Below are positions 6,437-42,340 of a stretch of DNA of 64,000 nucleotides, piece by piece. Position numbers and translations under genes: made by a program. The notes below the pieces were generated by a model, which ran no database searches, had not been told where the DNA came from, and saw nothing but the letters and a program-made list of their open reading frames with translations. Each line of letters opens with the position of its first letter. Position 1 is the first letter of the stretch. Source of the DNA: Granulosicoccaceae bacterium (GTDB lineage: Bacteria; Pseudomonadota; Gammaproteobacteria; Granulosicoccales; Granulosicoccaceae); the NCBI GenBank assembly GCA_020629835.1, contig JAHDCO010000010.1, positions 1 through 64,000 on the forward strand, in the 5' to 3' direction.

Positions 6437-7843
6437 TCAAGATGCAGCCCTTGCGTCACAAAACGCTTTCACCGTTCTTGAAACATCATGCTGCGTCGTT
6501 GCCCATGAGCACACGCTGATCCTGATAACGGGTTCACCAAACCACATCGAGCTTCCCACCCACGCCTCACCTGATGCCTGGACTCTCCGCACAAAAGACT
6601 TCGTAGCCGCGTCATCGCCCACGCGAATCATGACTTGATTGAACACTATATCCGCAACCACCTCGAACCCTGCGGTTTTTAATTCCTGACCAAATTGCGT
6701 CGCTCTGTCATGGAAAGACCCAACCATCTGGTCAACTCCGCTTCGACCCAAATATTTAAGTGTTGCCCAAAGGTCTACCGCGCGAGCCCGACGAGACATC
6801 TCCGGGGTGTAGAGCATGCCGTCGCGGTGTTCGGAGTACATGATGTATGCCCCTGAGTTTTGCAACGCTTTCACCATGGCCTCGGCGTCTGCGCAGAGCG
6901 ATATGCCGCTGTCGTAAGGGGTATTTAATGTTTTATGCCCATCAACACTCCAGGAATCTGCCAACTCAATTCCGTCGGTTAGGTGGCGCAACCGTTGGCA
7001 AGCCGCAGCCCAAAGCCCAAAGGCTCCGTCGATGTGTACCCAGGCACCGGCCGATTTGGCCTGTTCACACGCTTTGCGCAAAGGGTCAAAAGACCCAGAA
7101 TTCACATTTCCGGCTTGCAGAATCAGGATGGTGTTTTGATCCAGCTCAGGAAGGGCTGTAGTAAGTAACCGGCCCTGGGTGTCAACATCTACCCACTCAA
7201 TGCAATCGGTTCCAAAGCCTAATAGAACGACTGCCTTCAGTACGGTGCTGTGTGCGTGACGGCTGGTGACTATTCGAAGCTTCGGGGCTCCGGCTAATCC
7301 GCCTGAGTTGATGTCATAACCTGCACGTTCGCACAATCGCCACCGAGCCGCAGCGAGCCCGCAGACAATCGCCATGGATGTGCCGGATACAAAGCCTGCG
7401 ACTGTTTTTTCAGGTAAACCCAATAGATCGCATAACCAAGCCTGACAGACTTCTTCCAGCACAGCATTGGTCGGTGAGATGGCGTGCAATACGGCGTTCT
7501 GGTCCCAGGTGTCGGCAAGAATGCGAGCGGCTAAACCGGCAGGTACTGTGCCGCCGTTGACCAATCCGAAAAAACGCCCTCCGATTTGTGCCATGGTGCC
7601 TGGTGAGCCAATGGCGTGAAGCTGATCCACAATGTCGAAGGCATCGCCTGAGTGCTCCGGCAAGGCTTCACGGAAACGGTCAAGATCAGTTACCGCCTCT
7701 TTTGTCGGTGCCACCTGTCGATCAAATGTGCCACTGAGGTAAGCACCCCCATGATCCAGCGCGCGACGGATTAAAGCGCCATCTTCGATTAGCGTTTGCA
7801 TCTGTTGCTGGAGGTTTTCAGCAGTTTGTTTGGTCACGGTCAT
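6437..7843 (-). CDS. PLP-dependent group II amino acid decarboxylase family protein
   Basis: Fold-type I PLP enzyme of 468 residues, close in layout to aromatic-L-amino-acid and glutamate decarboxylases. Visible signatures are the cofactor-stacking His (RHAHST, about His198), the Asp that pairs with the pyridine nitrogen (HIDGAFG, Asp272) and the Schiff-base lysine in DGHKTLN (Lys304). The substrate cannot be read from sequence. Some relatives are annotated as aspartate aminotransferase-like. It stands alone, divergent from the COG0523 gene, with its stop nearly touching the 3' end of tRNA-Ser. Confidence 0.88.
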   Translation of the reverse strand: MTVTKQTAENLQQQMQTLIEDGALIRRALDHGGAYLSGTFDRQVAPTKEAVTDLDRFREALPEHSGDAFDIVDQLHAIGSPGTMAQIGGRFFGLVNGGTVPAGLAARILADTWDQNAVLHAISPTNAVLEEVCQAWLCDLLGLPEKTVAGFVSGTSMAIVCGLAAARWRLCERAGYDINSGGLAGAPKLRIVTSRHAHSTVLKAVVLLGFGTDCIEWVDVDTQGRLLTTALPELDQNTILILQAGNVNSGSFDPLRKACEQAKSAGAWVHIDGAFGLWAAACQRLRHLTDGIELADSWSVDGHKTLNTPYDSGISLCADAEAMVKALQNSGAYIMYSEHRDGMLYTPEMSRRARAVDLWATLKYLGRSGVDQMVGSFHDRATQFGQELKTAGFEVVADIVFNQVMIRVGDDAATKSFVRRVQASGEAWVGSSMWFGEPVIRISVCSWATTQHDVSRTVKAFCDARAAS

Positions 7844-7921
7844 GGCCTGGAATTTTTTTGCGAGTGTAACGAAAAGCTCCTGTGCAATTGCGTTTATCTT
7901 TCACGCACGATTGTTTCCTGT

Positions 7922-7943
7922 GAAATGATATAATGTAACGTTG
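7922..7943. promoter_or_regulatory. Candidate Zur operator with -10 box
   Basis: GAAATGATATAATGTAACGTTG is an imperfect palindrome close to the gammaproteobacterial Zur consensus (GAAATGTTATANTATAACATTTC). It includes a TATAAT hexamer at 7929-7934 and sits 9 bp upstream of the COG0523 GTPase start. Zur binding here would block that promoter when zinc is ample. The match was judged by eye. Confidence 0.5.
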
Positions 7944-7951
7944 TCTATTTC

Positions 7952-9187
7952 ATGTTGGCTAAAGAAATCTTGCACACCGAACCGTCTACCAAACTTCCCG
8001 TAACTGTACTGTCCGGTTTTTTAGGCGCCGGTAAAACCACGGTGCTCAGTCATATTTTGAACAATCGGCAGGGGCGCAAAGTCGCGGTCATTGTTAATGA
8101 TATGAGTGAAATCAACATCGACGCTGCGATCGTGAAAAACGAAGTTACGTTGAACCGCAGTGAAGAGAAGCTGGTTGAGATGAGCAACGGCTGTATCTGT
8201 TGTACGTTGCGTGAAGATCTACTCAAAGAAGTAGCGTCGCTTGCAGCTGATAAGCGCTTTGATTATCTGGTCATTGAGTCCACCGGCATATCTGAACCCC
8301 TGCCAGTGGCGGAGACCTTTACGTTTGCCGATGAAGACGGAGTCTCATTGGGTGATGTAGCAAATCTGGACACTATGATCACGGTGGTGGATGCGGTGAA
8401 TTTCGTTAAAGACTACGACGAAGCAAAGTACCTGCAGGAAACCGGCGAGTCGTTAGGGAAAGATGACGAACGAAGCGTTGCTGATTTACTGGTTGATCAG
8501 GTTGAGTTCGCGGACGTTATTCTCATCAGCAAAACTGACTTGGTTGAAGCCGAGGACATCGAACGGTTAACAGCGATCTTAAAAACGCTGAACACCGAAG
8601 CGAAGATACTCCCGATTGAACTTGGCAACGTGGATGTGGACGCGGTATTGAACACGGGGTTGTTTGATTTTGATCGCGCTCGTCAGGCACCGGGCTGGTT
8701 GAAAGAGATGCGCGGGGAGCACATACCAGAAACTGAAGAATACGGAATTGGCAGTTTCACCTACACGGCGCGTCGACCGTTTCATCCTGAAAAATTCTTC
8801 GAATTTCTTCACGACACCGAGTCGTTCGGAAAACTGCTGCGCTCGAAAGGGTACTTCTGGCTGGCGTCGCGCGCTGAGTTTGCGGGTCAGTGGAGCCAAG
8901 CCGGCGGCATTGCACATTATGGTTTTGCAGGCATGTTCTGGAAGGCGGTGCCAGAGGCGAATTGGCCTACCGACCCGGACTACCTTGCGTCTATAAAAAC
9001 GCAGTGGGTTGAGCCGTTTGGGGATATGCGGCAAGAGCTGGTGTTTATCGGTCAATGTCTTGATAAGCACGCCATGATTCGAGCCCTGGATGACTGCCTA
9101 CTCAGCGAACCCGAAGTGCTAAGGGGTAAGGCCTACTGGAAAACGCTTAACGATCCCTTCCCTTCCTGGAAGGAGAATATGCAGTAG
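7952..9187 (+). CDS. COG0523 GTP-binding metallochaperone (ZigA/YciC/CobW type)
   Basis: P-loop GTPase of 411 residues that probably delivers a metal, most likely zinc, to client enzymes during scarcity. The N-terminal G domain shows Walker A (GFLGAGKTT), the family metal site [13 protein letters not shown] (CxCC), a Walker B-like region ending in ESTGISEP, and SKTDLV for guanine binding. The C-terminal CobW_C domain covers about residues 260-400. The length fits the zinc-responsive ZigA/YciC group better than the shorter YjiA. No histidine-rich loop is seen. The Zur-like site just upstream supports a zinc role. No clear Shine-Dalgarno precedes ATG 7952; if the overlapping TATAAT is used, the leader would be about 10 nt. 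Confidence 0.88.
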
Positions 9188-33036: not shown

Positions 33037-34530
33037 ATGAATCTATTGCTCAAAATCATATTGCCCGTGTTGGTTTTGATGGGCAGTGCATTCGCAGCCA
33101 AGAAGATGCTGGAATCCAGCCCTGAGGCCGGGCGCCGAAGTTTCCCCCCACCTGTACAGTCGGTGGAAGCCACTAAGCTGGATACCACCGACTACCAGAT
33201 TCTTTTACAAAGCCGAGGCACAGTTGAGCCCACCAACGCCACAACGCTCGTACCCGAGGTGGCAGGATCGGTGGTCAGCGTGTCCGAAAATCTGGTACCC
33301 GGTGGCCGCTTTGCCGCCGGTGACGTACTGGTGGAGCTGGACAAACGTGATTTCGAAATTGCGCTCACCCAAGCCACCGCGCAGCTAGCGCAGGCGCGAG
33401 CCGCGCTGCAGCAAGAGCGCGCCCAGGCGGAGGTGGCAGCACGAGATTGGGCATCTTTGCGAGGGAACACAAAAGCATCGGCGTTGACTCTTCGAGAGCC
33501 GCAGGTTGCAGCTGCCCTGGCCAATGTTCGCTCAGCCACGGCACAGGTAGCACGAGCTCAATTGGATTTTGATCGAGCCGTACTCGTTGCACCATACGAC
33601 GGGCTGGTGCTGGAAGCCGATGTGGATGTCGGTCAGTTTGTTAATCGCGGGACGGCGATCGGTCGAATTTATTCGGTGGCGGCGGTGGATGTTCGGCTTC
33701 CAATATCCAATCGACAGGTCGACTGGCTGGACCTGGAATCCGAAGGAGCGTCCAACAAGCCGCCGGTTATCTTAAAAGCATCCATTGGCGCCACTCAGCA
33801 TACCTGGGCAGGCTATATCGAACGCGTTGAAGGTTTTGACGCCGCCACCCAACAGCTGAACGTCATTGCCCGTGTTTATGATCCTGAAGAAGCGTCATCT
33901 ATGCCGCTGCGCGTGGGTCAATACGTGAATGCCGAAATTGCCGGTAAGACCTTAAACGATGTGTTTGTCATTCCCCGCCAGGCTCTGCGTGCAAACGATG
34001 AAGTGATAACCGTAACCCCGGAGTCCACGCTGGAAAGACAGTTGGTAAGCGTCGCCTGGGGTGACACCGATCAAGTGGCGGTGACCGAAGGGCTACAGGT
34101 GGGGTCGGTGTTAGTTACCACACCGCTGAGTAGTGTGGTTAACGGTAGTCCCGCACGAGCGATCATTGATGGCGTTGAACCGCCTCCTGCGGCGCGTGGC
34201 GGAGATCGACGTTCAGGGTCCCGTACGGAAGGTGGCCGTCCTGCGGGTGCAGGCGCGGGTGCCCCCGCATCCGAACGCGGCAATGGTGAAGGCCGTGGAG
34301 CCGGTCGCGGTGAAGGACGTGGCGAAGGACGTGGCGAAGGACGTGGCGAAGGACGTGGCGAAGGACGTGGCGAAGGTCGCGGTGAAGGTCAAGGTCCAGC
34401 GCGTGGTGAGGGTCAGCGCGATAGGGGAGATTCTAATAACCGCCCTGCTGCGTCCAGATCAGAGTCTGACGCCAGCGCAACGTCAGCAAAAGAACCCACG
34501 CTCGTTAACACGAATCAAGACCGCACTTAA
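33037..34530 (+). CDS. RND efflux periplasmic adaptor (MFP) with Gly/Glu/Arg repeat tail
   Basis: Membrane fusion protein of 497 residues linking an inner-membrane RND pump to an outer-membrane channel. ATG 33037 starts an N-terminal anchor (MNLLLKIILPVLVLMGSAFA). Lipoyl-type halves (TLVPEVAGSVVSVSENL and RAVLVAPYDGLVLEADV) flank an Ala/Gln-rich helical hairpin at about 110-165. Beta-barrel and membrane-proximal parts follow to about residue 385. The last 100 residues are unlike the family: a GEGR-repeat tail with an in-frame 12-bp tandem DNA repeat, then a Ser/Asn-rich end. It is followed 24 bp later by the pump gene. No TolC-type gene is present nearby. Confidence 0.9.
   Translation: MNLLLKIILPVLVLMGSAFAAKKMLESSPEAGRRSFPPPVQSVEATKLDTTDYQILLQSRGTVEPTNATTLVPEVAGSVVSVSENLVPGGRFAAGDVLVELDKRDFEIALTQATAQLAQARAALQQERAQAEVAARDWASLRGNTKASALTLREPQVAAALANVRSATAQVARAQLDFDRAVLVAPYDGLVLEADVDVGQFVNRGTAIGRIYSVAAVDVRLPISNRQVDWLDLESEGASNKPPVILKASIGATQHTWAGYIERVEGFDAATQQLNVIARVYDPEEASSMPLRVGQYVNAEIAGKTLNDVFVIPRQALRANDEVITVTPESTLERQLVSVAWGDTDQVAVTEGLQVGSVLVTTPLSSVVNGSPARAIIDGVEPPPAARGGDRRSGSRTEGGRPAGAGAGAPASERGNGEGRGAGRGEGRGEGRGEGRGEGRGEGRGEGRGEGQGPARGEGQRDRGDSNNRPAASRSESDASATSAKEPTLVNTNQDRT
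34309..34392 (+). repeat. 12-bp in-frame tandem repeat in the adaptor gene
   Basis: Seven units of GGCGAAGGACGT or near variants run head to tail; four of them (34321-34368) are identical. Each encodes Gly-Glu-Gly-Arg. Perfect short units like this are prone to slippage, but loss or gain of a unit keeps the reading frame. Confidence 0.95.
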
Positions 34531-34554
34531 AAACCCTACTACCGGAGTACGACT

Positions 34555-37500
34555 ATGCACTCACTGGTTCGATGGTTTACCAATAACCCGGTAGCTGCCA
34601 ATCTGCTGATGATCTTCATTGTGGCCGCCGGTGCGGTTACCTTGTCATCGCGATTGCCACTGGAAGTATTCCCATCATTCGAACTTAATCGAATCACCAT
34701 TCAAGTGCCTTATCGCGGTGCGACACCGGTTGAGGTTGAGCAAGGCATCACGATAAAGGTGGAAGAGGCTATTCAGGGCCTGGAAGGTATCGATTCGATT
34801 ACCTCAAATGCGGCTGAAGGTTTGGGCACCATCTCGGTTGGGCTGGAATCTAATGCGGACAGCGAAAAGTTGTTGGACGAGGTTCGGCAACGAGTCGATC
34901 AAATCGGTGATTTTCCTGTGGATGCGGAGAGCCCGAGTGTGTATATCCCTGCAAGAAGCCGTGAGGTCATCAGTGTCATTGTGTCCGGTGCATTGCCCGA
35001 GCAGGAGTTGGTCAGTATTGCATCCCGCGTTCGGGATGATTTGGAAGCTCTGCCTACGGTTTCCTCAGTACAGGTATCCGGTGCCCGAGATTTTGAATTG
35101 GCGATCGAAGTTTCAGAAAACACGCTAACGCAATATCAGTTAACACTTGCCGATGTTTCACGTGCCATATCCAACAGTTCGTTGGAGCTTTCGGCCGGGG
35201 CGATTCGTACCGCGAGCGGCGAGGTACTGCTAAGAACAGCAGGCCAGGCGTATTCGGCCGAAGATTTTGCTGCGGTGGTTTTGCAAACCCGAGCTGATGG
35301 CACACGATTAACACTGGGTGATGTAGCGACCATTTCGGATGGGTTTGACGAGGATCGTTTGGATCAACGCTACAACGGTCAAAGCAGTGTGGAAGTTGAC
35401 GTTTATCGAACTGGTCTGCAAAGCGCTATTGAAGTCGCCGAAGAAGTTAAAACCTATTTGTTGGAAGCTGAAGAGACGCTGCCTTATGGGGTAACGCTGG
35501 GCTATTGGCGTGACTCGTCTCGTGTTGTAAAAGCTCGTCTGAATACACTGCTGGAAAGTGCGATGTTTGGCGGCTTGCTGATCATTTTGCTGTTATCGCT
35601 GTTTCTTCGGTTTTGGGTGGCGGTGTGGGTGTTCGTTGGCGTTCCCGTCTCCATTTTGGGCGGCATTGCCATGATGCCTGTGTTGGGCGTTTCTTTAAAT
35701 TTACTGAGCTTATTCGCGTTTATTTTGGTGCTCGGTATTGTCGTTGACGATGCCATAGTGACAGGGGAAAACATCTTCACCCATATGAAGCGCAATCCCA
35801 ACCGAATAGAAGCCGCGATAGAGGGTACCAATGAGGTGGCGATACCCGTCACCTTCGGCGTGTTAACAACGGTAGCTGCGTTCATACCCTTGCTGATGAT
35901 AGAAGGCGCTCGAGGGCAGATATTTGCACAAATTCCGTTAATTGTTATCCCGGTGTTGTTGTTCTCGATTATTGAATCAAAGTTTATTCTGCCGTCCCAT
36001 CTTAGCCATTTGAATTTCCATTCGAAGAAAAAACCGAACATATTTGCGCGCATGCAACACAAAGTGGCGGACGGATTTGAATGGTGTATTCACCATATTT
36101 ATCGGCCCGCGTTAGCGGCGTGTTTAAGCTTTCGGTATGCCACGCTTGCTTGTTTTATTGGGGTGGCCATGATTGTGTTTGCGATGGTTAGTGCCGGGCA
36201 TGTTAGTTTTATATTCTTCCCGCGTGTTCAAAGTGAGACTGCTGTTGCGTCCCTGGAAATGCCGGAGGGCACACCGTTTGAAGTTACGCAGCGGCACATA
36301 CAGCGCATAACGGATGTGGTTAGCGACCTGCAGGAAGAGTACGTTGACCCAGACACGAATGAAAGTGTCATTGAAAACATCATGTCTATTGCTGGCAGTT
36401 CCGGTGGCGGGTCAAGAGCCAGTCATCGGGGGCGAGTGATGTTTGAAATCATGCCCCCCGAAGAGCGCACCGTCGATGTCACCAGTCGTGAGCTGGTATC
36501 TGAATTGCGGCAGCGTATCGGCTCCATTCCCGGTGCTAAAAACCTGACGTACCGTGCGGAGATTGGACGAGGTGGTAGCCCCATCGATGTGCAAATTTCC
36601 GGATTTGATTTTGATGAACTTAAAGAAGCCTCGGCATTGATGAAGGCGCGCCTGCAAACGTTTGAAGGGGTCAGTGATGTGAGTGATACGTTTGAGGGTG
36701 GTAAGCAAGAAATTCAGCTCACACTGACGCCTAACGGCGAGCAGTTAGGGTTAACCCTGAGTGATGTCGCAGGGCAGGTTAGGAACGCCTTTTTAGGCAC
36801 GCAAGTGCAAAGCTTCCAGCGAGGCCGCAATGACGTTCAAGTGGTGGTCCGATACCCGCAGGAAGGGCGTGTATCAATCACGAATGTTGAGCAAATGTTG
36901 TTGGTAACACCAACCGGTGATCGCGTTCCGCTCTACAGTGTGGCGAACGTATCCCTGGGGCAGGGGTTTTCGGTTATCAAGCGAGTGGATCGTCGGCGTA
37001 CCGTTAACGTGCAGGCCGATGTCGATAAAACGGCTGCGAATGTCGAAGGCATAAAAGCCGGCTTGGTCTCGTACGCGGATGAATTGACACAAACCTTTCC
37101 TGATTTACGATTCTCGTTGGAAGGTGAAGCTCGAGAACAGAGTGACTCGTTTGGGAGTTTGAAAACAGGCATTATCTTCGTGCTGTTGGTCATCTATACC
37201 TTGCTTGCCATTCCGTTCCGGAGTTATGTGCAGCCGATTATGGTGATGCTGGTCATTCCGTTCGGAATTGTGGGCGGTATATTGGGCCATGTGGTTATGG
37301 GTATGAGCCTGAGTATCATGAGCTACATGGGCATGTTGGCTCTGTGTGGTGTTGTGGTGAATGACTCTCTGGTATTGGTAGATTATGTAAACAAACGCCG
37401 CGATGAAGGTATGCCATTATTTGATGCCGTACGAACCGCTGGCGTTGCGCGTTTTCGAGCGGTGATATTGACATCTTTAACAACGTTCTTTGGGCTGGTA

Positions 37501-37701
37501 CCGTTGATCTTTGAAACCAGTACCCAGGCTCAATTTCTGATTCCCATGGCGGTGTCTTTAGGGTTTGGAATTTTATTCGCTACGGTCGTTACCTTACTCT
37601 TTATTCCGGTGATGTATTTGATCTTCTCGGACTTAGGCGCAGCCTACAAAAAAGCCGATCAATGGGTAGGCGGTGGTCGAACAGTTGCAAACCGAAGTTA
37701 G
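34555..37701 (+). CDS. RND efflux pump (AcrB/MexB superfamily)
   Basis: Inner-membrane proton-driven exporter of 1048 residues, full family length, with 12 predicted helices and two large periplasmic loops. The N terminus WFTNNPVAANLLMI and the TM4 proton-relay motif VLGIVVDDAIVTGENI with paired Asp are typical. The C-terminal half repeats the layout (MSYMGMLALCGVVVNDSLVL). It resembles the HAE1/AcrB-like group common in marine bacteria. A Shine-Dalgarno CGGAG lies before ATG 34555. It forms an operon with the adaptor and with the MMPL gene that overlaps its end. Confidence 0.93.
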   Translation: MHSLVRWFTNNPVAANLLMIFIVAAGAVTLSSRLPLEVFPSFELNRITIQVPYRGATPVEVEQGITIKVEEAIQGLEGIDSITSNAAEGLGTISVGLESNADSEKLLDEVRQRVDQIGDFPVDAESPSVYIPARSREVISVIVSGALPEQELVSIASRVRDDLEALPTVSSVQVSGARDFELAIEVSENTLTQYQLTLADVSRAISNSSLELSAGAIRTASGEVLLRTAGQAYSAEDFAAVVLQTRADGTRLTLGDVATISDGFDEDRLDQRYNGQSSVEVDVYRTGLQSAIEVAEEVKTYLLEAEETLPYGVTLGYWRDSSRVVKARLNTLLESAMFGGLLIILLLSLFLRFWVAVWVFVGVPVSILGGIAMMPVLGVSLNLLSLFAFILVLGIVVDDAIVTGENIFTHMKRNPNRIEAAIEGTNEVAIPVTFGVLTTVAAFIPLLMIEGARGQIFAQIPLIVIPVLLFSIIESKFILPSHLSHLNFHSKKKPNIFARMQHKVADGFEWCIHHIYRPALAACLSFRYATLACFIGVAMIVFAMVSAGHVSFIFFPRVQSETAVASLEMPEGTPFEVTQRHIQRITDVVSDLQEEYVDPDTNESVIENIMSIAGSSGGGSRASHRGRVMFEIMPPEERTVDVTSRELVSELRQRIGSIPGAKNLTYRAEIGRGGSPIDVQISGFDFDELKEASALMKARLQTFEGVSDVSDTFEGGKQEIQLTLTPNGEQLGLTLSDVAGQVRNAFLGTQVQSFQRGRNDVQVVVRYPQEGRVSITNVEQMLLVTPTGDRVPLYSVANVSLGQGFSVIKRVDRRRTVNVQADVDKTAANVEGIKAGLVSYADELTQTFPDLRFSLEGEAREQSDSFGSLKTGIIFVLLVIYTLLAIPFRSYVQPIMVMLVIPFGIVGGILGHVVMGMSLSIMSYMGMLALCGVVVNDSLVLVDYVNKRRDEGMPLFDAVRTAGVARFRAVILTSLTTFFGLVPLIFETSTQAQFLIPMAVSLGFGILFATVVTLLFIPVMYLIFSDLGAAYKKADQWVGGGRTVANRS

Positions 37702-39859
37702 TGCAAAACGAGCCAGGCTAAACGCGCCCGCGTTTGGTTTATTGTTTGTCCTGATTGTTCTACTGGCAGGCTTGGTAAAGCTAAGCGTTAACGCCGATCC
37801 TGCACATTTGGTTGCCTCAGATTCTGAACGGTACCGGGCCTATCAATATCTGTTAGATCGATTTCCTGGGGAACAACACCAGGTGTTTATCTTCACTGAA
37901 GCCGATGCGTTTAGCGCAGAGCATTTAGCGCTTTACCAAGCGCTGCAAGAACCCCTGGCCAACTTTTCCGCGGTTCGGAATGTGAGTTCCTTATTTTCTG
38001 TACCGACGCTCGAGCGAGCCCTGCAGCGAATTATTAGTGACCCCGAGCAAGCGCAAGTGTCCGGGTTGGCCGACGACGTCAGCGCATTGTTGCAACGTGC
38101 CGACTTCCTGCCGTCACGGTTTGTGTCACGTGACGAAGATGCATTGGTTATGAGTGTGATGCTTAAAGCGTCCGCCGATGCACAGCAGGCGCTTTCGGAC
38201 ATAAACGGACTGTTGGCTAACCACTACAGCGCAGAACATGACATTAGCTGGTCTTTGGCAGGCACGCCGGTTGTCGAAGCGGCATTGGCATCAGACGTTA
38301 TGGCAGAGATGGGTAGAGTGCTGCTGCTCAGCGTGGTTTTGGGTAGTTTGGTCGCTGCCTGGATGCTGCGCGACGTTCGCCTTTTAATCATGTCACTGGT
38401 TGTGCCGACGTCTGCTGTACTCGCAACGCTTGGGGCGATGGGTTGGGTGGGATTACCGTTAACGCTGTTATCGCAAACGGTGTTGGTGGTCGTGTTTTTA
38501 GTGGTATTCGCGGACACTTTACATGCACTGCGTGGCAATCGAACGCATCGATCGCTGCTAATGGTATGTGGGTTAACCAGTGTGACAACTGGCGCTGCTG
38601 CGCTTTCGTTGCTTTTTGCTCATTCCTCGGTCATTCAAGAGTTCGGGGTAACGTTGTTATTGGGTATTGCGGTTGGTTTTTTGGTCTGGTGCTTGTGGCT
38701 GTATTCGGGCTTAACCGTTAAAACAGACAAGTCTGGAGAAGCATTTTCTCAACCGTGGGCGTTGCAAACTGGCGTCAGTAAGAGCCGCTTAACAGTTGGT
38801 ATGTTGGCGATGTTTGTCGCTTTGTTGGTTCCTACCGTATGGCTGGAAACCGGGTTTTCCTGGCACGAAAATTTGCCTGCGTCCCAATCGGCTGGGCAAG
38901 CGTTGCACTTGGCAGAAAATCGCTTTAATGGATATTTACCGTTTCAGATCGTAGTCACCGAACGTCAGCGGGCGGAAAGCCCTGAAACGTTTTTACAGGA
39001 CGTCACTCAGTTTCAAACAGCGATTAATGCCGATGATTCTTTTACCGATGTCGGCCTGCATCGCTGGTATTCCATTGTCGACGTCGCGGCCTTGGCGCCT
39101 GGGTTTAACGCGTTGCAGCGTGTTAATACGGTGCCGAACGCTGTTAAGCGAGCGCTTTGGTACCCCAGCTCACAGGGTAACTTTCCAAGGCAGGCGGTGC
39201 TTTTCGCGCCGGTGCCCATGCAAGCGTTGATGGCAGCTGATGGGAACCTGTTGACCGAAATGGATGTTTGGTTGCAGCAACACGGAAAAGCGGTTCAGAT
39301 CGACGTCGGTACCGTAACTGGTATGCCAGCTTTGGTGAAAGAAGGGTCTGTGGGGCTGGTTAATGAAGCGTGGCAGAGCTTATTGATCACGTTGTTGATA
39401 CTGATGTGTGTGGTGGCAATTGCGTTACGCTCGCTGAAATTAGGGCTGCTGGCCGCGATACCGGTGGGTTTTGCTGTCACAACCTACGCCACGGCCCTCG
39501 TGGTTTTAGGAGAACCGCTACGCCATTCAGGCGTTGTGTTGCTGACGTTGGTCGTGGGTTTATCTGTGGATTATTCGTTGCACCTGATAATGAGCGCTCA
39601 AAGCACCCGTGTAGATGGGAAGCCGTCGGATGGAGCGCAAATTTCGCGTTTAGCGGTAAGGAATGTAGAGGAATGTTTGCCCGTTCTGTGGGTATCCGTT
39701 ATGGTGTCGGTAGTTGGGTTTTCAGCACTATTGTTCAGTGATATACCTAGCCTATCAATTCTGGGGTGGACAACCGCAACGGCGGTGGCTGCAGGGTTTG
39801 CGGCATCGGTTCTGTGTTTGCCTACCTTTTTGGTTAAACCAGCATCAGTGACGAGGTAA
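37673..39859 (+). CDS. MMPL/RND-superfamily exporter
   Basis: Second exporter, 728 residues, with two homologous halves of about six helices each and large soluble loops. Each half has the acidic proton-relay position: VVFADTLHALRGN in the first and GLSVDYSLHL in the second, as in the MMPL/hopanoid-exporter group. MMPL proteins export lipids or lipid-linked compounds. The GTG start at 37673 overlaps the pump gene by 29 bases; TTG 37685 is an alternative. The lipoprotein gene follows six bases after it, so the two are likely partners. Confidence 0.85.
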   Translation: MVEQLQTEVSAKRARLNAPAFGLLFVLIVLLAGLVKLSVNADPAHLVASDSERYRAYQYLLDRFPGEQHQVFIFTEADAFSAEHLALYQALQEPLANFSAVRNVSSLFSVPTLERALQRIISDPEQAQVSGLADDVSALLQRADFLPSRFVSRDEDALVMSVMLKASADAQQALSDINGLLANHYSAEHDISWSLAGTPVVEAALASDVMAEMGRVLLLSVVLGSLVAAWMLRDVRLLIMSLVVPTSAVLATLGAMGWVGLPLTLLSQTVLVVVFLVVFADTLHALRGNRTHRSLLMVCGLTSVTTGAAALSLLFAHSSVIQEFGVTLLLGIAVGFLVWCLWLYSGLTVKTDKSGEAFSQPWALQTGVSKSRLTVGMLAMFVALLVPTVWLETGFSWHENLPASQSAGQALHLAENRFNGYLPFQIVVTERQRAESPETFLQDVTQFQTAINADDSFTDVGLHRWYSIVDVAALAPGFNALQRVNTVPNAVKRALWYPSSQGNFPRQAVLFAPVPMQALMAADGNLLTEMDVWLQQHGKAVQIDVGTVTGMPALVKEGSVGLVNEAWQSLLITLLILMCVVAIALRSLKLGLLAAIPVGFAVTTYATALVVLGEPLRHSGVVLLTLVVGLSVDYSLHLIMSAQSTRVDGKPSDGAQISRLAVRNVEECLPVLWVSVMVSVVGFSALLFSDIPSLSILGWTTATAVAAGFAASVLCLPTFLVKPASVTR

Positions 39860-39865
39860 CAGAAA

Positions 39866-40969
39866 ATGCGTTCCAATCTTCCTTTATCGGCCGTTGCACT
39901 GGCCTGCACGCTTGCTTTAGCCGGTTGCGGCGGTGGCAGCAGTAGTAGCGATTCAGGCGACGATTCCACTCCCACAGATATGACCGGAGGCACTGGCGGC
40001 TCAGGCGGTGGTGATGACTCGGGCAACGCGGGTGGTGGCGATGTGAGTACTGAACCGTTTTTCACAGAAGATGAAGGGGTCGGTTTTGCGAGTGGCTTGG
40101 GGCGCAGTCTCTCTGGTGTGTTCGAACGATCGTTGTCTGCTGCCACACTCGGGCTCGGTGGCGGTGGTTCATTCGACGACGGCGGTGATGATCAGTCGGA
40201 TTTCAACTTTGACGATCTGGACGGGCTTGATGGTCTGGACGGTTTGGATGGGTTCGATGGATTTGACGATTACGATGACGGGTTTGATGACGGCGATGAT
40301 GACCCGGTTTTCAATGACCAGACGGGCACTGAAATGTGTGACAGCGGATCCATCTCGTACTCGTTTGACGCCAACGACCAAGGCGATTTACTGAACGGAT
40401 CGGTGGTATTCAATAATTGTGTGGAAGCTGGGCAAACAGCCACCGGCTCCATGTCAATTAGCTCGTCTTCCACAGCTGGCGGTACACAAACAATATCGGT
40501 TCAATTTGATGACTTTGCCACAACAGGTTCGGAAGGCAACACCAGCGTCAATGGTGCAGTCAATGTCACGGCGACGGCCGATGGAAACAGCGGATCGATC
40601 AGTGGCACATCGTTTGTCATGGTGGCTGATGGCGAAACCGTGTCTATGTCTGATTTCAATATGTCGTATTCGTTGAATGAAGACACAGGTATTCAAACGG
40701 TTGACGGGCAGGCCACGATTGATACGTCTTCAGACGGCAGTATTTCTTTTGCTATCAGTCCGGCTCTGAGCGGACCTGAAGATGGAAACCCGCAGACAGG
40801 CAGTGTCACTATGAGCCACTCCGACGGCAGTTCGTTGACCATCAACGCGGATACAGGTAACCCTGATACCTACATGTACAGCGTGACCGACGGGGGATCA
40901 GTCTCGACCGGCATTGGTAACTGGGATGACGACGGGTTTGTCCTGCCGCAGAATCCCGCCCTGCAGTAA
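39866..40969 (+). CDS. Asp/Gly-rich lipoprotein A, sister of the lipoprotein at 41219
   Basis: Lipoprotein of 367 residues with a signal peptide ending LALAGC. A Gly/Ser/Asp-rich linker follows, then an LDG/FDG tandem stretch (about residues 118-145) with many Asp residues, which may bind Ca2+. The C-terminal half is beta-rich: MCDSGSISYSF, LNGSVVFNNC, then GSVTMSHSDGSSLTINAD and YSVTDGG. The same pattern recurs in the next large gene, so the two are divergent paralogues. I do not recognise a known family. GAGGTAAC before ATG 39866 is a good ribosome site. Confidence 0.85.
   Translation: MRSNLPLSAVALACTLALAGCGGGSSSSDSGDDSTPTDMTGGTGGSGGGDDSGNAGGGDVSTEPFFTEDEGVGFASGLGRSLSGVFERSLSAATLGLGGGGSFDDGGDDQSDFNFDDLDGLDGLDGLDGFDGFDDYDDGFDDGDDDPVFNDQTGTEMCDSGSISYSFDANDQGDLLNGSVVFNNCVEAGQTATGSMSISSSSTAGGTQTISVQFDDFATTGSEGNTSVNGAVNVTATADGNSGSISGTSFVMVADGETVSMSDFNMSYSLNEDTGIQTVDGQATIDTSSDGSISFAISPALSGPEDGNPQTGSVTMSHSDGSSLTINADTGNPDTYMYSVTDGGSVSTGIGNWDDDGFVLPQNPALQ
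40217..40270 (+). repeat. 9-bp degenerate repeat encoding LDG/FDG units
   Basis: Six consecutive nine-base units encode Leu-Asp-Gly (four times), Phe-Asp-Gly and Phe-Asp-Asp inside lipoprotein A. Codons vary between units (CTG GAC GGG, CTT GAT GGT), so selection is on the protein pattern rather than recent slippage. Confidence 0.85.
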
Positions 40970-41014
40970 CGGTTATGCGCAGTAGGGCCTTACAAACGTA
41001 GGACCATGTAAACA

Positions 41015-41128
41015 ATGACTCGCTGGCGTTATGGACGACGCCGGCGCTACCGGGCGCTTTCGGGCGCGATAGCCGCTGTGGCGATTATCATCGCCTGTGT
41101 TTTTGCGAAACAGATCACAAACCGGTGA
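41015..41128 (+). CDS. Possible 37-residue single-pass membrane microprotein
   Basis: A short ORF between the two sister lipoprotein genes encodes an Arg-rich N terminus (MTRWRYGRRRRYRALSG), then a hydrophobic helix AIAAVAIIIACVFA and a short polar end. The charge pattern predicts one membrane helix with N-in topology. AGGA lies 11 bp before the ATG. Length is too small to judge by composition alone; no family is known to me. Confidence 0.35.
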   Translation: MTRWRYGRRRRYRALSGAIAAVAIIIACVFAKQITNR

Positions 41129-41218
41129 GTCTGGTGCGCCACCTCTACCAAAGAACTCTGAACGACGCCGTTAATTGCATTGGGGTATGGATCCGTGCAA
41201 CCACAGGTGTGTTCAAAG

Positions 41219-42340
41219 ATGAAGGCTCAACCGCTACTCGCAAACGTGGTCGTCGTAACGACGGTTTTGGCGCTGGGCGGCTGTAATACTGAGGCTGGTG
41301 ACGACCCGATTACGGGCGAAAACTCATTAGTTAAAGAACTTCTCACACCCGTGTACGACGCCGACGGCAACAACCTGACGGCGATCAATCAAACTAATTT
41401 TCCACTACCTCCAGCTGAGCCCACCGTGAGCGCAGCGCTTCCTGACACGAATGCGTTAGGCGGCGATACTGACTCAGACAGCGATAACGACAGCGACCCC
41501 GATGCACCGGAAACCGGTGGTTTAGGTAATGCGGCGGATCTTGATCGCGACAACTACTACGATGATGACAGCACGGTCGTAGCCACGACTGATCCATTGG
41601 GTGTGCGTATGGGTAGCTTATTGCACGCGGTGGGCGGTACGGTTGCAGAAGCCTATGCACACGCATCCGGTAGCACCGTTTTCTCGGATGGCACCGAAGC
41701 CATAACCAAACGAATTGCGGAAAAATCAGCCTGTGACTCCGGCACGATCGATGCCGATTTCGTTATGAATGGCGCTGCATTAAATAACGGTTCTTTGGAA
41801 TACGCAGATTGCAGCTACAACGGTACCCTGCTAAACGGATTAATGATTTTCTCAACCCCAAATGCGGCAGCTTCAGACACCATCGTGGTTGAAATTATCA
41901 GCGTTTCTGCGGTGTTAGCTGAAGGGGAAGTGCAGTTAAGCGGATCGCTGGCGATGGCATTTAACGGTAACGCGTTTGCCGTGCTAAGTGAGAATGTAAC
42001 AACGTCTGGTGCAGATTTCGAACACCGCTGGGAAGCCACGAATTTAACCGGTGGGTTGATATTGGGCGGTGAGCGTGAGTTGTCGGGACGCACGCGTTTG
42101 GTTGACGTGACGCAAGGTGGCACGATTGATTTATCGTTCAGTTCGGTTGCTGCCGTTACCGGGTCTGATTATCCAAATTTTGGTACCCAAACTCACGAGC
42201 ACTCAGACGGTTCGCGTGTGCAGTTTGATTACGATGCCGGTGATGCCACCATGTTTGACATAACGGTGACACGGCAGGATGGCAGCACGTCCACGTACTC
42301 CCGAGACTGGTCTTCAGTACAAACACGTATCCCGTTTTAG
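41219..42340 (+). CDS. Lipoprotein B, sister of the lipoprotein at 39866
   Basis: Lipoprotein of 373 residues; the signal peptide from ATG 41219 ends in a lipobox LALGGC. An acidic linker (TDSDSDNDSDPDAPETGG) follows. The C-terminal half repeats the layout of lipoprotein A: ACDSGTIDADF, NNGSLEYADC, then HEHSDGSRVQFDYDAGDA and ITVTRQDGS. Paired Cys residues are at matching positions. The last four bases overlap the convergent HTTM-DCC1 gene. An upstream TTG frame adds 13 residues without a ribosome site. Function is unknown; a role with the upstream MMPL exporter is inferred from position. Confidence 0.82.
   Translation: MKAQPLLANVVVVTTVLALGGCNTEAGDDPITGENSLVKELLTPVYDADGNNLTAINQTNFPLPPAEPTVSAALPDTNALGGDTDSDSDNDSDPDAPETGGLGNAADLDRDNYYDDDSTVVATTDPLGVRMGSLLHAVGGTVAEAYAHASGSTVFSDGTEAITKRIAEKSACDSGTIDADFVMNGAALNNGSLEYADCSYNGTLLNGLMIFSTPNAAASDTIVVEIISVSAVLAEGEVQLSGSLAMAFNGNAFAVLSENVTTSGADFEHRWEATNLTGGLILGGERELSGRTRLVDVTQGGTIDLSFSSVAAVTGSDYPNFGTQTHEHSDGSRVQFDYDAGDATMFDITVTRQDGSTSTYSRDWSSVQTRIPF

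Follow-up and report, generated by a model that had tools for sequence, protein, structure and literature searches.

One standing question is how hydrophobic molecules pass from the inner membrane to the outer one; few partners are known for the MMPL transporters of Gram-negative bacteria. The locus described here spans positions 33037-42340 in a window of 64,000 nucleotides of contig JAHDCO010000010.1, from a marine Granulosicoccaceae bacterium. Behind an RND adaptor and pump come an MMPL exporter and two lipoproteins, LP1 and LP2 (Table 1). A sequence-only reading had taken these genes together, and proposed from their order that the exporter may deliver a lipid or lipoprotein, with the lipoproteins as outer-membrane acceptors. 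All five genes are found in the order it gave, and the junction of pump and exporter is indeed gapless, as the MMPL start overlaps the pump by 29 nt. The question is which of these genes form a unit, and what such a unit might do.

Table 1. Features of the locus, with positions in the window, strand and basis of assignment
Feature	Position	Strand	Basis and remarks
RND periplasmic adaptor	33037..34530	+	TIGR01730 RND_mfp 6.7e-40; neighbouring core locus, judged outside the unit
RND pump (ACR_tran)	34555..37701	+	ACR_tran 5.6e-177; neighbouring core locus, judged outside the unit
MMPL/HpnN-like RND-superfamily transporter, 728 aa	37673..39859	+	Pfam MMPL 1.8e-9, hydropathy
MMPL Asp281 (FADTLH, TM4), putative proton relay	38513..38515	+	Alignment; invariant in 7 lipoprotein-linked MMPLs
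MMPL Asp633 (GLSVDYSLH, TM10), putative proton relay	39569..39571	+	Alignment; invariant in 7 lipoprotein-linked MMPLs
LP1 lipoprotein, 367 aa	39866..40969	+	Starts 6 nt past the MMPL stop
LP1 lipid-anchor Cys21, lipobox LAGC	39926-39928	+	Read from sequence
LP1 predicted helix 68-97	40067..40156	+	AlphaFold model mac234a2e9dd0
LP1 Asp/Gly-rich linker, variable	40175..40312	+	Sequence, tandem-repeat rows, alignment
LP1 C-terminal domain, 14 predicted strands	40313..40933	+	C158, C185, HSDGS motif, W353 conserved; pLDDT about 80-95
Micro-ORF, 37 codons	41015..41128	+	Between LP1 and LP2; not conserved; overlaps terminator-like stem 41080-41095
LP2 lipoprotein, 373 aa	41219..42340	+	About 250 nt past LP1
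LP2 lipid-anchor Cys22, lipobox LGGC	41282-41284	+	Read from sequence
LP2 predicted helix 117-151	41567..41671	+	AlphaFold model md58015d66dca, low confidence
LP2 C-terminal domain, 14 predicted strands in LP1 order	41705..42316	+	C172, C198

The two lipoproteins and their shared domain

LP1 and LP2 each carry the signal peptide, lipobox and cysteine by which bacterial lipoproteins are recognized in sequence; for LP2, a longer frame from 41180 with a TTG start is less likely. The late layout that the two had been noted to share points to homology and not to chance: BLASTP finds 26% identity (E=9e-12) across 212 C-terminal residues, and LP2 is recovered at E=2.9e-12 by a profile of LP1-type domains only, with no LP2 row. 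The cysteines C158 and C185 of LP1 align with C172 and C198 of LP2, and the H-S-D-x-S motif and the final tryptophan align throughout. On these comparisons, the C-terminal ~205 residues of both proteins are homologous.

Unrelated C-terminal folds would speak against this kinship, and the AlphaFold models, computed from alignments of 15 (LP1) and 14 (LP2) sequences, instead predict one fold, with a single helix and the same 14 β strands in each protein. These strands pair one to one across the LP1-LP2 alignment, though slightly displaced midway along LP2, whose model has low overall confidence (53), rising to 80-90 in the last strands. Because the input alignments overlap, the two models are not independent, and the claim of homology is therefore carried by sequence. 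In both models the sheet is up-and-down and its strands are amphipathic (p=0.0005 for LP1, 0.0145 for LP2), a feature that would fit a lipid-binding face but is no evidence for one, since any barrel or sandwich should show it. Foldseek returned no significant match for the lipoproteins (best E 0.006). The VIA fold matches are weak and comprise porins, VDAC, ApoB, OspA and ORP/Osh domains; among those that handle lipids are the ORD of ORP8 and Osh6 (Z 7.6 and 7.2, helix included) and ApoB (Z 10.5), the top score, up to 10.5, being common to porins and ApoB. Such a mixture reads as an "up-and-down β meander" of the predicted fold and not as a family. LolA and LolB are not among the Foldseek or VIA matches, an absence that excludes nothing.

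The domain could not be named through Pfam or NCBIfam either. No Pfam family, LolA, LolB, DUF3261 and MmpS included, matches any of 19 family and 15 class-wide members at E≤0.01, and NCBIfam gives three weak matches, to one or two members each (best 0.0016). A PDB search by sequence yields nothing for the lipoproteins at E≤0.1. Judged by these profiles, the domain is a family lacking a curated name, one that matches no curated Lol-type family, and its presence across Gammaproteobacteria merits a family entry in any case.

LP1 has glycine at +2 and +3 after the lipid-anchor cysteine and LP2 has asparagine at +2, while the LP2 of a relative, G021, has Asp-Asn. In E. coli, Asp-Asn after the lipoprotein cysteine is an inner-membrane signal, and by the E. 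coli rule LP1 and LP2 would reach the outer membrane and the G021 protein would not. This +2 sorting rule is weak outside Enterobacteriaceae (PMC6469965). The linker of LP1 includes an Asp/Gly repeat at 40208-40270 (DGLDGLDGLDGFDGFD), which is missing in the closest relative, that of G021.

The transporter and its pairing with lipoproteins

The transporter belongs to a known class, MMPL of the HpnN/MmpL-like kind. Its Pfam MMPL match (37.4 bits against a cut-off of 20.5) places it in the RND superfamily, and hydropathy alone indicates 12 transmembrane segments in a 1+5/1+5 arrangement with two periplasmic loops of ~165 residues; these loops are short, and hydropathy gives no AcrB-type docking domain. 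More specific models stay below their cut-offs: TIGR00921 (HAE3) reaches 102.6 of 351.9 bits (1.5e-29), and the HpnN models TIGR03480 and NF052374 reach 30.5 of 751.85 and 19.9 of 1100 bits, respectively. The best PDB match of a profile of the MMPL clade is HpnN (2.2e-18), followed by MmpL4 and MmpL3, with MmpL5 also among the matches; the hopanoid transporter HpnN is thus the closest solved relative, with matches covering only part of the protein.

A survey of 95 related genomes, with contexts of up to 20 kb, found seven genomes, of three genera, in which an MMPL gene is immediately followed by a co-oriented gene for such a lipoprotein (G000, G021, G025, G008, G032, G004 and G028). They represent four gene contexts: four of the seven cases form one syntenic locus, that of the pump (G000, G021, G025, G008), and G032, G004 and G028 contribute one context each. 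The lipoprotein-linked transporters are 23-46% identical to that of the window. When 29 MMPL proteins are placed in a maximum-likelihood tree, all seven unite in one clade (support 99/98). Pairing is conserved in 7/7 members of the clade. Adjacency by chance would be expected in ~0.003 genomes, a rough estimate to be read with the shared ancestry of the seven cases, which are not independent. No such lipoprotein lies within 1.5 kb of the best MMPL relatives from outside the family or of the other MMPLs of the survey that were checked, and the pairing is therefore specific to this clade. If such transporters occurred mostly without lipoproteins, the association would lose its meaning; within the clade they are found with them, and outside it neither half implies the other. 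In the class-wide survey, the clade profile detects an MMPL at E≤1e-40 in 77 of 369 genomes. Because relatives carry the pair at several unrelated places in their genomes, it is probably real, a conserved unit of two parts and a small, testable system.

Some members of this group deserve separate mention. The gene behind the G025 transporter (L069 4870-5397) encodes 175 residues without a signal peptide and is probably a decayed copy. The sister of the clade is the MMPL of G017 (support 90/86), which has no lipoprotein; upstream of it (L086 9332-11503) lies a gene read from its sequence as KAS III/type III PKS-like (7764-8831), a neighbour that may hint at a substrate of polyketide- or lipid-like nature.

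A proposed hand-over of a hydrophobic substrate, and other readings

A joint function of transporter and lipoproteins is plausible. The reading that we prefer, with a probability of about 0.42, is that they constitute a two-component envelope transport unit in which a lipid-like substrate would be handed from the MMPL protein to the lipoprotein. What the analysis establishes is that the two domains are homologous, that the pairing is conserved and does not depend on the pump, and that the transporter is of the MMPL class with conserved aspartates; the rest of this reading is inferred. The transporter, proton-driven as are those of the HpnN/MmpL type, would extract from the inner membrane a substrate that is lipid-like, or hydrophobic in some other way, and pass it to its partner, as suggested by the transporter class, its short loops and the presence of a lipoprotein beside it. 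Transport would be directed outward and the hand-over direct: the lipid-anchored lipoprotein would reach out on its flexible linker, and its helix and curved 14-strand sheet would form the surface that receives or carries the substrate, most likely at the outer membrane. The two lipoproteins would be diverged copies, perhaps serving two substrates or two steps. Against the hand-over stand the lack of a lipid-synthesis gene in the unit, the Asp-Asn of the G021 LP2, the frequent occurrence of the lipoprotein domain without an MMPL, the want of a significant fold match, and the origin of four of the seven pairs from one syntenic locus. A bolder version, in which the HpnN-like transporter passes a lipid to an outer-membrane 14-strand acceptor or carrier independently of LolA-type shuttles, and which would amount to a new lipid route, seems unlikely.

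Several known systems resemble the proposed unit in part. In aryl polyene clusters, ApeM, an RND-family transporter, and its Lol-like partners ApeL and ApeN have been proposed to bring a lipid-linked product to the outer membrane (PMC8253772). The present pair likewise joins an RND-family transporter to a partner protein with a proposed hand-over, but it comes with neither a LolA-like or DUF3261 protein nor biosynthetic genes, and its lipoprotein is of another, unnamed family. In bacterial sterol transport, the HpnN-like MMPL (PF03176) inner-membrane protein BstA is served by periplasmic and outer-membrane-associated lipid-binding partners, BstB and BstC (PMC10942540). The likeness again lies in an HpnN-like MMPL inner-membrane transporter with a partner; however, BstB resembles PhnD and BstC is a T-component protein, whereas the lipoproteins here match no Pfam family, and no sterol genes are present among the profiled neighbours at the locus. 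The curved β-sheet and helix predicted for the lipoproteins, on the periplasmic face of a membrane, recall LolA and LolB, to which they have no Pfam match. A literature search covering few subscription journals found no published description of an MMPL-lipoprotein pair.

The lipoproteins could also be accessory subunits of the transporter, sitting at its periplasmic face and gating or stabilizing it; the MMPL would then be a pump that expels or exports a small hydrophobic compound instead of supplying lipid to the outer membrane. In mycobacteria, MmpL transporters have a small partner, MmpS, encoded beside them, and an equivalent role, as of MmpS to MmpL4/5, would agree with the strict downstream adjacency, with the single lipoprotein that suffices in G032, G028 and G008, with the aspartate at +2 of the G021 LP2, and with the MmpL4 and MmpL5 structures among the matches of the clade profile. 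The partner here is a lipoprotein with a predicted 14-strand domain, a probable difference from MmpS. Considering that this domain forms a widespread family of stand-alone lipoproteins, and that LP1 has glycine at +2/+3 and a long flexible linker, we regard this explanation as doubtful.

Somewhat less probable still is that these are general surface lipoproteins merely co-transcribed with a transporter that works alone. Within Granulosicoccaceae, lipoprotein loci without an MMPL gene outnumber those with one (11 vs 7). A match to the domain at E≤0.001 occurs in 28 of 369 genomes of Gammaproteobacteria, and the class-wide members that were read are mostly stand-alone lipoproteins some 330 residues long; none of the contexts examined has an MMPL nearby. 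A profile-to-profile comparison, using a class-wide alignment devoid of the window sequence, relates them to the family at E=2e-30. Yet co-transcription alone does not readily explain why the pairing has been kept through four contexts and the deep divergence of both partners (23-46% for the MMPLs). Since the lipoproteins mostly occur without an MMPL, and only one MMPL clade is paired, the domain is a general envelope module recruited by that clade, and lipid transfer is therefore not a property of the lipoprotein family as such.

Finally, the lipoprotein, or its acyl chains, might itself be the cargo that the transporter moves to the outer membrane or surface. The exporter does adjoin this candidate cargo, and the unit holds no gene for another substrate; but the same lipoproteins occur where there is no such MMPL, and with their ordinary lipoboxes the standard Lol route should serve them, which makes this alternative improbable.

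The adjoining pump locus and other occurrences of the domain

Adaptor and pump are ordinary RND parts. Among 20 further adaptor-pump loci of the family, two (L192 and L207) stop at the contig edge right after the pump, which leaves 18 informative, and none of these 18 has an MMPL or lipoprotein gene behind the pump. Most such loci in the genus of the window retain a divergent radical-SAM gene on one flank, and many also keep an HTTM/DCC1 gene on the opposite flank. In several, the pump is followed by a gene some 160-180 codons long; in the two that were checked it is a 4HBT thioesterase (G009) and its homologue (G003), and relatives of the G009 protein are present elsewhere in G021, G025 and G008, with none found in G000. 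The MMPL-lipoprotein block is therefore an accessory one, acquired by or lost from an adaptor-pump locus that is older and independent of it. Among the four syntenic genomes (that of the window and those of loci L068, L069 and L070), the pump is 82-84% and the radical-SAM protein 88-89% identical, as against 41-49% for the MMPL and 26-35% for LP2. Either the block evolves much faster than the genes around it or it has been exchanged, and a change of substrate, a relaxation of constraint or selection at the surface would each fit.

A single five-part export machine of adaptor, pump, MMPL and lipoproteins, which the overlapping or closely spaced pump and MMPL genes of G000, G021, G025 and G008 might suggest, is very improbable, given the 18 relatives that keep adaptor and pump without the rest, the pairs that have no pump alongside (G032, G004) or have it apart on the other strand (G028), and the disparity in identity between pump and MMPL among the four genomes. 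The membership of adaptor and pump, assumed by the earlier reading, is accordingly not sustained, and no tripartite RND efflux system comprising adaptor and pump in one unit with the MMPL was found. That reading had also closed the system with a micro-ORF. The frame exists, but between the lipoproteins and not after them; as the matching gaps of two relatives (G021 and G004) hold no similar frame and it overlaps a terminator-like stem, it was rejected as a gene, and its place in the system is not supported. At its end the adaptor has a long tail of GRGEGRGEG repeats (34284-34388), built of tandem units of 12, 24 and 36 bases.

A collection of plasmids holds no relative of LP1, and a scan of contigs for the lipoprotein family returned 11 loci, all in Granulosicoccaceae MAGs. 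In genus g4 (L076, L077, L078, L079), the lipoprotein gene is flanked by genes for a CoA-transferase III and a Rieske ring-hydroxylating oxygenase, or has a desaturase-like gene in its vicinity. G021 has, on contig C32 (L084 9391-10515), an orphan LP2-type lipoprotein that adjoins uvrA, with no MMPL. The genome of the window itself encodes on contig C110 (L002 1438-3336) a larger protein with apparently two copies of the domain, recognized by eye and by a weak profile match; it shows C..GG and FNNC motifs, DGSSLTI near its end and a possible fibronectin-III-like start, and matches no Pfam family. In genomes of the family such as G023, G018 and G024, the last strands of the domain, with the HSDGS part, match up to eight times per genome, for the most part within larger proteins some 400-700 residues long.
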